64,000 nt of DNA from NCBI RefSeq assembly GCF_000003815.2, contig NC_049985.1, positions 20,281,420 through 20,345,419 on the forward strand, written 5' to 3'. Each line of letters opens with the position of its first letter. Positions within the stretch are counted from its first letter, which is position 1. Source of the DNA: Branchiostoma floridae. Its lineage: Eukaryota; Chordata; Leptocardii; Amphioxiformes; Branchiostomatidae. Of the stretch, positions 15,601-18,600 are shown one piece after another. A program made the position numbers and the translations under genes. Below the pieces are notes generated by a model that was not told where the DNA came from, ran no database searches, and worked only from the letters and a program-made list of their open reading frames with translations.

Positions 15601-18600
15601 GAAAATTCATGACACTCCAAATATGTGTTTCCAATATATTACATGCACTACTGCACCATGATTCAAAATAAGAGCATGCAACTTGCAATTTGCATTGTAA
15701 CTCTTCAAAATACGCTCCTAAAAATATTCCGAACTTGCAATTTTGATGACATGGGAGATTTTAAGTCTAGATATAAGTCACTTTTGCATGTTGGAAATAC
15801 CAAGCCTGTACAAAAAATGTTGAAGAAGACACCCTTCTTTTAGACTGAACTGCACATAGATGTCTTATTTTAACCCGTTTTCTCTAGTAACTTTTTCCGA
15901 GAACCAATAGATAACCCTTTCCCCTCTACTCTTATCCAACAGCACTGGAAAGATTTTGTGGTTTTACGTATGATAATATACATGTAATAACAAGATGAGA
16001 TCTGATGTTTTCAATGTGCTTTTCGTACCTTCCTTCCACAACAGAAGCCAAGGTTGGCCATCACAGGGTCAATCTCCTGCTCAAAAACCTCAGCAAGCTG
16101 GAGATACAAAGACACAAGTTAAGTCATTGCATACAACAACTCATCGCTTATTATGGTTGGAGAAATGCAGTTAACTTAATTCACATCATTACTGTATACT
16201 AAGTCCACACAAATTTGATTCCTTGGTTCCTCGAATTTGCTAGTTTTCTGATTCAGGCCATTGTGTCTGCCCTACAACATTCAAATTTTGGCACCATCAG
16301 TTAAAGAAAGTCTTTTTACTACATATATGTTTGCATTCATCCATGCATTAAGAAGTATTTTCTGAAATGTTCACCAGGCCAGGTGGTACGTTGACTTTGT
16401 GGCTCCTGTTGTAGCCTTTAGTCTATCACGAACTAATATGGCCAAAGTAAGACTCAATATCATTTCTTTGGTCTCTTAGCACAAAGCCTATCTTTAAACA
16501 TACCCTAAAGCATGCGGAAATGTTGCATTTTTCATGACAGAATGCTTTACAAATATTTTACCCGTATGTCAATATCAGATTAGGTGTAGTGCCAGAACAT
16601 ATACCTTAGAGCAGTACTTGTAAACCCTGGAAGTTTTGCGGTTGTACAGCCAGGCATTGTCAAACATCAGCCATACATCATCACAGTATTCCCAGGGGTC
16701 CTTGTACTGCCCTGTGTCCAGTTTTCTCTTGATGGTAGAAAGGTCCATAGGGTGTTTCACAATGTCAAAGTAGTCCTGTATTAGGAGAGAAAATTTCACA
16801 ACTCAAAAAACTTCACTTCACAAAGTTCAAAGTAGCACATAATCTTAAAAATGCATTTTTTCCAAGAATGATATCAAGGTGACAAAGGAGTCTGAAATCA
16901 TTTTCTTTCTTTTGTGGACTGTCTTTCAGTGGGCATGTCACCAAAGATAACCAGTCATAGATTTTTTTTTTAAATGCCAATATTGACTAGAACAAAGTGA
17001 GACTCCTGCTAGGTTAAGTTAATATTTATCATGTTCAGTACATTCACACACACATGACGATTAGAACAACAAATATAATATTGCTGGATGTTCTTTATTT
17101 AAACACTTTTTTTCAGGCTGCAGGTCTTTGCAGATTATTGAAGACAAGATTAAGAAGATTAGTACTTAAACAAGACTTACATATTAGTTACCAGGAACAG
17201 TTGGTTATTTCTCACCATGACATGGCTGGGGACAGACAAATGACCTGCAGTCGTTCATGCAAAAATGGGGACCAAACCTTAGGAACTCGCAACCCCTGAC
17301 TTACAGGGATGCCCAGCAGCTTGGGATCCACAGGCTGCCTGAAGGGAAGGGACTCCGGGTCCTGTCGGTACAGCTTCTCCAGGGTGGGCATCAGGGCCTG
17401 GCGCAGCTCATCTGGCTTAAACACTGCACAACACACAACATGGTGGCTTGGATACCAACACACTCATGGGGAATGAAGCTCAAAATCAGTCTATCTGGCT
17501 TAAACACTGCACAAAACACAACATGGTGGCTTGGATACCAACACACTCATGGGGAATGAAGCTCAAAATCAGTCTATCTGGCTTAAACACTGCATAACAC
17601 ACAACATGGTGGCTTGGATACCAACACACTCATGGGGAATGAAGCTCAAAATCAGTCTATCTGGCTTAAACACTGCACAACACACAACATGGTGGCTTGG
17701 ATACCAACACACTCATGGGGAATGAACTCAAAATCAGTCTATCTGGCTTAAACACTGCATAACACACAACATGGTGGCTTGGATACCAACACACTCATGG
17801 GGAATGAAGCTCAAAATCAGTCTATCTGGCTTAAACACTGCACAACACACAACATGGTGGCTTGGATACCAACACACTCATGGGGAATGAACTCAAAATC
17901 AGTCTATCTGGCTTAAACACTGCACAAAACACAACATGGTGGCTTGGATACCAACACACTCATGGGTAATGAAGCTCAAAATCAGTCTATCTGGCTTAAA
18001 CACTGCACAAAACACAACATGGTGGCTTGGATACCAACACACTCATGGGGAATGAACTCAAAATCAGTCTATCTGGCTTAAACACTGCATAACACACAAC
18101 ATGGTGGCTTGGATACCAACACACTCATGGGGAATGAACTCAAAATCAGTCTATCTGGCTTAAACACTGCATAACACACAACATGGTGGCTTGGATACCA
18201 ACACACTCATGGGGAATGAACTCAAAATCAGTCTATCTGGCTTAAACACTGCATAACACACAACATGGTGGCTTGGACACCAACACACTCATGGGTAATG
18301 AAGCTCAAAATCAGTCTATCTGGCTTAAACACTGCACAAAACACAACATGGTGGCTTGGATACCAACACACTCATGGGGAATGAAGCTCAAAATCAGTCT
18401 GAATGCCACTTTTCACAAAATGGTCATGAGTAAGGGGGTGAGAGTCAAACAGTTTGCAGCAGCTTTGTTTTGGCATTGACCTCTCTACCACAAAATATGT
18501 ATTGCCAATGCATTCCTACTGTACTACTGGACTGTTTCAGCCATGAACTAAACATACCTTGAGTACAAGCCAGTAGTAACGGCACTCTATGTAAGGTTAG

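Follow-up and report, generated by a model that had tools for sequence, protein, structure and literature searches.

Tandem arrays that span exon-intron borders have been described in amphioxus under the name of “mirages,” with Adh3, BflGb6 and BflGb9 given as examples and further loci cited (PMC3087553, in the excerpts that we draw on here). According to the same excerpts, the Branchiostoma floridae arrays were found from sequence traces and vary between haplotypes; BflGb6 has six and three units in two haplotypes, and the array of Adh3 shows somatic instability (PMC3087553). PGBD5, whose repeats are termed imperfect, has been added to the mirages, and TnC is cited among them (PMC3902484, in excerpt). 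In these portions of the two papers, arrays of this kind are reported to leave splicing undisturbed (PMC3087553; PMC3902484), the data for Adh3 and RT-PCR on globin transcripts being taken to suggest regular splicing (PMC3087553). Two more distant parallels deserve mention. By its title, on which alone the comparison is made, the paper on human ABCA7 concerns a VNTR that affects the splicing of its gene but is intronic (PMC5954066). The tandem-duplication models of intron gain (Rogers; Zhuo; Gao and Lynch; as cited in the excerpts of PMC3087553) also invoke duplicated splice signals, whereas the array reported here lies at an existing intron-exon border, a new intron not being shown.

That array is found in a window of 64,000 nucleotides of B. 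floridae DNA (contig NC_049985.1, positions 20,281,420 to 20,345,419), where it spans the acceptor of a bromodomain exon in a gene for CBP/p300 (Table 1). Tandem Repeats Finder returned a period of 83 with 12.0 copies and 97% matches, and an exact search found TGCAG followed by TGTTTAAGCCAGAT twelve times on the minus strand, at spacings, in transcript order, of 83, 82, 82, 82, 83, 82, 83, 82, 83, 83 and 83 bp. Each of the near-identical units thus holds 68-69 bases of the 3' end of the intron, closing with TGCAG, and then the 14 exon bases TGTTTAAGCCAGAT. A 19-base plus-strand probe made of these 14 bases and TGCAG, searched with up to three mismatches, matched the window 12 times, always within the array, against 0.02 matches expected from shuffling; a single unit used as query against the whole assembly gave at least 12 matches, all at the CBP array on contig C7. 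These searches confirm the structural claims of the initial annotation, which had described an 82-83 bp minisatellite across this acceptor, a TGCAG and the first coding bases in every unit (12/12, with AG intact in all), and eleven decoy acceptors ahead of the real one.

In spanning the exon-intron border of a coding gene with many AG or GT signals intact, the CBP array resembles the mirages of Adh3, BflGb6, BflGb9, TnC and PGBD5, as far as the excerpted sources describe them (PMC3087553; PMC3902484), and with an acceptor and 14 exon bases in 12/12 units it very probably belongs to the same kind. It differs from them in its host, and its twelve units compare with the six and three of BflGb6; its units also take in only 14 exon bases and come in two lengths. 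We found no published account of an array in CBP (CREB-binding protein) of amphioxus, in a literature largely without subscription papers, and the array looks like a new example, and a fairly long one, of a kind that is itself already published. On inspection, rather than by systematic comparison with exon borders, no further exon-border array was recognised among the 27 tandem-repeat entries and 10 direct-repeat families of the window, and Rfam at gathering thresholds gave no match across it.

Table 1. Positions of the CBP array, its host exons and the related arrays. Plain positions refer to the window; those with a locus prefix refer to separate stretches of the same genome.
Feature	Position	Strand	Basis or remark
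Upstream exon, 232 bp, ends in phase 1 (...NKK G/)	19472..19703	-	Borders predicted from sequence
Host intron, 2048 bp; 1140 bp up to first decoy acceptor	17424..19471	-	Donor placed by reading frame
Minisatellite array, 12 units of 82-83 bp	17410..18400	-	Tandem Repeats Finder, exact motif search
Stretch with 11 decoy acceptors TGCAG	17507..18336	-	Exact motif search, reading frame
First base after each decoy	18331, 18248, 18166, 18084, 18002, 17919, 17837, 17754, 17672, 17589, 17506	-	
Real acceptor TGCAG, unit 12	17424..17428	-	Exact motif search, reading frame
Real exon, 119 bp, start of bromodomain region, CBP/p300; donor CCT/GTAAGT	17305..17423	-	Translation match
Next exon, stretch from acceptor ACAG/GACTAC at 16775	16599..16775	-	Pfam Bromodomain 7.3e-17; 16599 ends the stretch, not necessarily the exon
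ADH exon with border arrays on both sides	L040:864-1777		59-bp acceptor and 33-bp donor units
Acceptor mirage, PDE2A homologue, 3 units of 125 bp	L025:1099-1475 (contig C7, about 13.001 Mb)		Translation match

The identity of the host gene is supported by matches to TAZ, KIX, HAT_KAT11, ZZ and Creb_binding, all on the same strand as the bromodomain exon. The 39 full codons of that exon match p300/CBP bromodomain chains over all 39 residues (best E 1.6e-19); its first 14 bp are part of the last repeat unit, and the first intron base after its donor is 17304. The upstream exon joins in frame to its opening bases TG TTT AAG (NKKVFKPDEL), and an intron of 529 bp separates the bromodomain exon from the next one. 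Elsewhere in the gene, an 18-bp repeat (2142-2254) lies inside the C-terminal open frame, close to glutamine runs, and a 745-codon open frame with a reverse transcriptase domain (4720-6957, plus strand; RVT_1, 4.6e-38) runs on the opposite strand within the span of the gene.

Use of decoys 1 to 11 would add 908, 825, 743, 661, 579, 496, 414, 331, 249, 166 and 83 nt, respectively, to the transcript. The initial annotation had held that a decoy inserts a non-multiple of three and so breaks the frame. The first part is true of seven of the eleven; because the units come in two lengths, the other four (825, 579, 414 and 249 nt) add a multiple of three. The second part stands for all of them: on reading through the frames, every decoy product meets a premature stop 86-113 nt past its acceptor, stop codons breaking even the four that are in frame, and an open frame from the upstream exon is obtained only with the twelfth acceptor. 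By a simple count of pyrimidines at positions -20 to -4, rather than by a trained splice-site score, no decoy falls short of the real site: units 1, 5, 6 and 11 have 11, and the remaining seven decoys have 10, as has the real site. The choice among them must therefore be decided by context, and, with near-equal signals in all copies, it would be the downstream context, that is the exon body and a donor 119 nt away, that marks the real acceptor.

Given this arrangement, we consider it likely that the CBP array is a mirage that is tolerated, most probably without a function of its own, since exon definition favours the acceptor nearest to the exon body. Only unit 12 directly adjoins that body, with the donor 119 bp away, and with long introns on either side (2048 and 529 bp) pairing across the exon would favour the acceptor nearest to the donor. 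The likeliest leaks would be through the two nearest decoys, giving exons of 202 and 285 nt; carrying an early stop, these and all other decoy products should be cleared by nonsense-mediated decay. A human survey finds that exon definition, in a setting of long introns, gives the advantage to the splice sites nearest across the exon (PMC9225289, in excerpt). For 3' sites, the same excerpt states that exon definition does no more than lessen the advantage of the upstream site, which is the site favoured by the classic rule cited there; some leak is therefore to be expected, and the twelfth acceptor need not be the only one chosen.

The frequent preference for upstream 3' sites (PMC9225289, in excerpt) also speaks for a kinetic choice, under which the decoys, being transcribed earlier, would be used often while decay hides their use; the array would then cost expression and persist by drift. 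The single additional pyrimidine in four of the decoys agrees with this. However, the RT-PCR evidence on like arrays (PMC3087553, in excerpt) suggests regular splicing, and a costly array in a needed gene should be selected against. We regard frequent but hidden use of the decoys as unlikely.

The initial annotation had also raised a regulated poison-exon route, in which use of the decoys would be tuned by tissue or by the level of CBP, the resulting stop-bearing mRNA would lower the output of CBP/p300, and the copy number would set the gain. The intact acceptors of all eleven decoys and the early stop in every product fit such a switch, as does the fact that CBP is dosage-sensitive in humans. 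However, all eleven decoys met stops in 2000/2000 trials with the intron part shuffled; the property thus needs no selection, and selection for poison stops was rejected as unneeded. Nor is it special to CBP, since the decoys of the PDE2A, globin and ADH arrays described below also lead to stops. RNA folding, which covered the last two units together with the exon, showed nothing out of the ordinary (z 0.13; 106/200 shuffles as good), and on the same result RNA structure that hides the decoys was rejected. In a scan of the last unit, its 11 GT sites agree with at most 5 of the nine positions of the donor consensus, against 7/9 for the real donor, and an internal donor that would make a cassette exon was likewise rejected. 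With like arrays reported not to disturb splicing (PMC3087553; PMC3902484, in excerpt), the regulated route found no support in our analysis and is very unlikely.

Comparison of the units reveals five variable columns in 83, all in the intron part, whereas the 14 exon columns and TGCAG are invariant in the 12 units. Zero variation would arise by chance with a probability of 0.39 for the 14 exon columns and 0.26 for the 19 columns that include TGCAG; with so few variable columns, the invariance of exon bases and acceptor is uninformative for either side, and selection on the duplicated exon bases was rejected as an explanation of it. All four combinations occur in four pairs of the variable columns. 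Identical units are 1 and 11, 3 and 4, 7 and 9, and 8 and 10, three of these four pairs being non-adjacent; such a mosaic is of the kind left by exchange or conversion between units. The tolerated mirage would have begun as a tandem duplication with its ends within the 3' end of the intron and 14 bp into the exon, which may then have multiplied to 12 units, exchange or conversion probably keeping them similar.

An assembly artefact, with the array absent from the animal or of other than 12 units, is very improbable: although the window contains a 100-N run (28736-28835, probably an assembly gap) and one globin array seems to have been misassembled in the draft genome (PMC3087553, in excerpt), the mosaic order of the five variable columns is unlike a stutter of identical copies, the two ends of the array are flanked by sequences that differ from each other, and the published B. 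floridae arrays were seen in traces and to vary between haplotypes. Haplotypes may well carry different exact numbers of units at CBP too, for which the mosaic of the units gives indirect support.

Other arrays at exon borders of the same genome offer a comparison. The PDE2A array is another mirage; each of its units spans the acceptor and 69 exon bases, and the translated exon matches PDE2A in a search of solved structures (3ibj, E 5e-16). One of nine globin-family matches has four acceptor copies at spacings of 154, 158 and 158 bp, in agreement with the published BflGb6 array as to side and unit length (150-160 bp); this locus (L038) is probably BflGb6. One of two ADH stretches (L040), in turn probably Adh3, carries acceptor units of 59 bp in seven copies, six full and one shortened, and on the opposite side of the same exon donor units of 33 bp in at least ten copies (N follows), in line with the unit lengths of 10-72 bp cited for Adh3. 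At this ADH exon it is the copies closest to the exon, on the acceptor side and on the donor side, that keep the frame, the geometry also seen at CBP, in part because no other copy adjoins the exon body. The donor unit, of 33 bp, is a multiple of three yet holds an in-frame stop. The globin and ADH arrays speak for B. floridae as the source of the genome; a search for the GFP family, which gave no match at E 0.001 here or in the control genomes and does not show absence, counts mildly against it, since one abstract credits amphioxus with 16 GFP-like genes.

Among the decoys counted, AG is kept at 11/11 acceptors in CBP, 2/2 in PDE2A, 3/3 in globin and 6/6 in ADH, and GT at 9/9 ADH donors, counts that come from search motifs which themselves contained AG or GT, with mismatches allowed for PDE2A, globin and ADH, and which would miss more degraded copies. 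Products with stops follow from 11/11 decoys in CBP, 2/2 in PDE2A, 3/3 in globin, 5/5 of those read through among the 6 ADH acceptors, and 9/9 ADH donors.

The frequency of such arrays was approached by a census of 20 stretches of 10 kb, taken at round (non-random) positions on 11 contigs and amounting to 200,000 bases (175,892 readable and 24,108 N). Seven arrays with a period of at least 50 and a score of at least 80 were found, and one of the seven, that of PDE2A, proved to be a mirage. Pfam was run on 10 of the 157 frames flanking the census arrays (with some duplicates in the list) and yielded a single match below its cut-off; the search of solved structures was run on one census frame. 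Another census array, with 3.7 units of 81 bp (L029:7406-7702), lies inside a 331-codon open frame and is probably a coding minisatellite, its unit being a multiple of three. One mirage per 176 kb would correspond to about three thousand per genome, with a range of about two orders of magnitude because the estimate comes from a single event.

On the basis of this one PDE2A mirage among seven arrays in the 176 kb sampled, plus the CBP array, it is conceivable, and we propose it tentatively, that mirages are a genome-wide feature of amphioxus, with hundreds to thousands of duplicated splice borders; the genome would then amount to a large natural experiment on how the spliceosome chooses among equal sites, with CBP among the sharpest test cases. 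Should mirages prove as frequent as this small census suggests, they ought to be allowed for when genes are predicted and variants called in amphioxus. At CBP, twelve near-equal acceptors, of which the last alone is productive, in a gene that animals need make for a clean natural test of choice across the intron versus choice across the exon, and the array indicates that, in the amphioxus lineage, core regulatory genes are open to invasion of their borders by minisatellites.

Two further observations may be added. Elsewhere in the window, an adenylate/guanylate cyclase domain (8.1e-53) is encoded in a lone open frame of 581 codons (54355-56100, minus strand) that looks intronless. Finally, both of the new acceptor arrays, in CBP and in PDE2A, contain GT-rich tracts (TTGTGTGTTGTGCAG and GTGTTGTGTAG).
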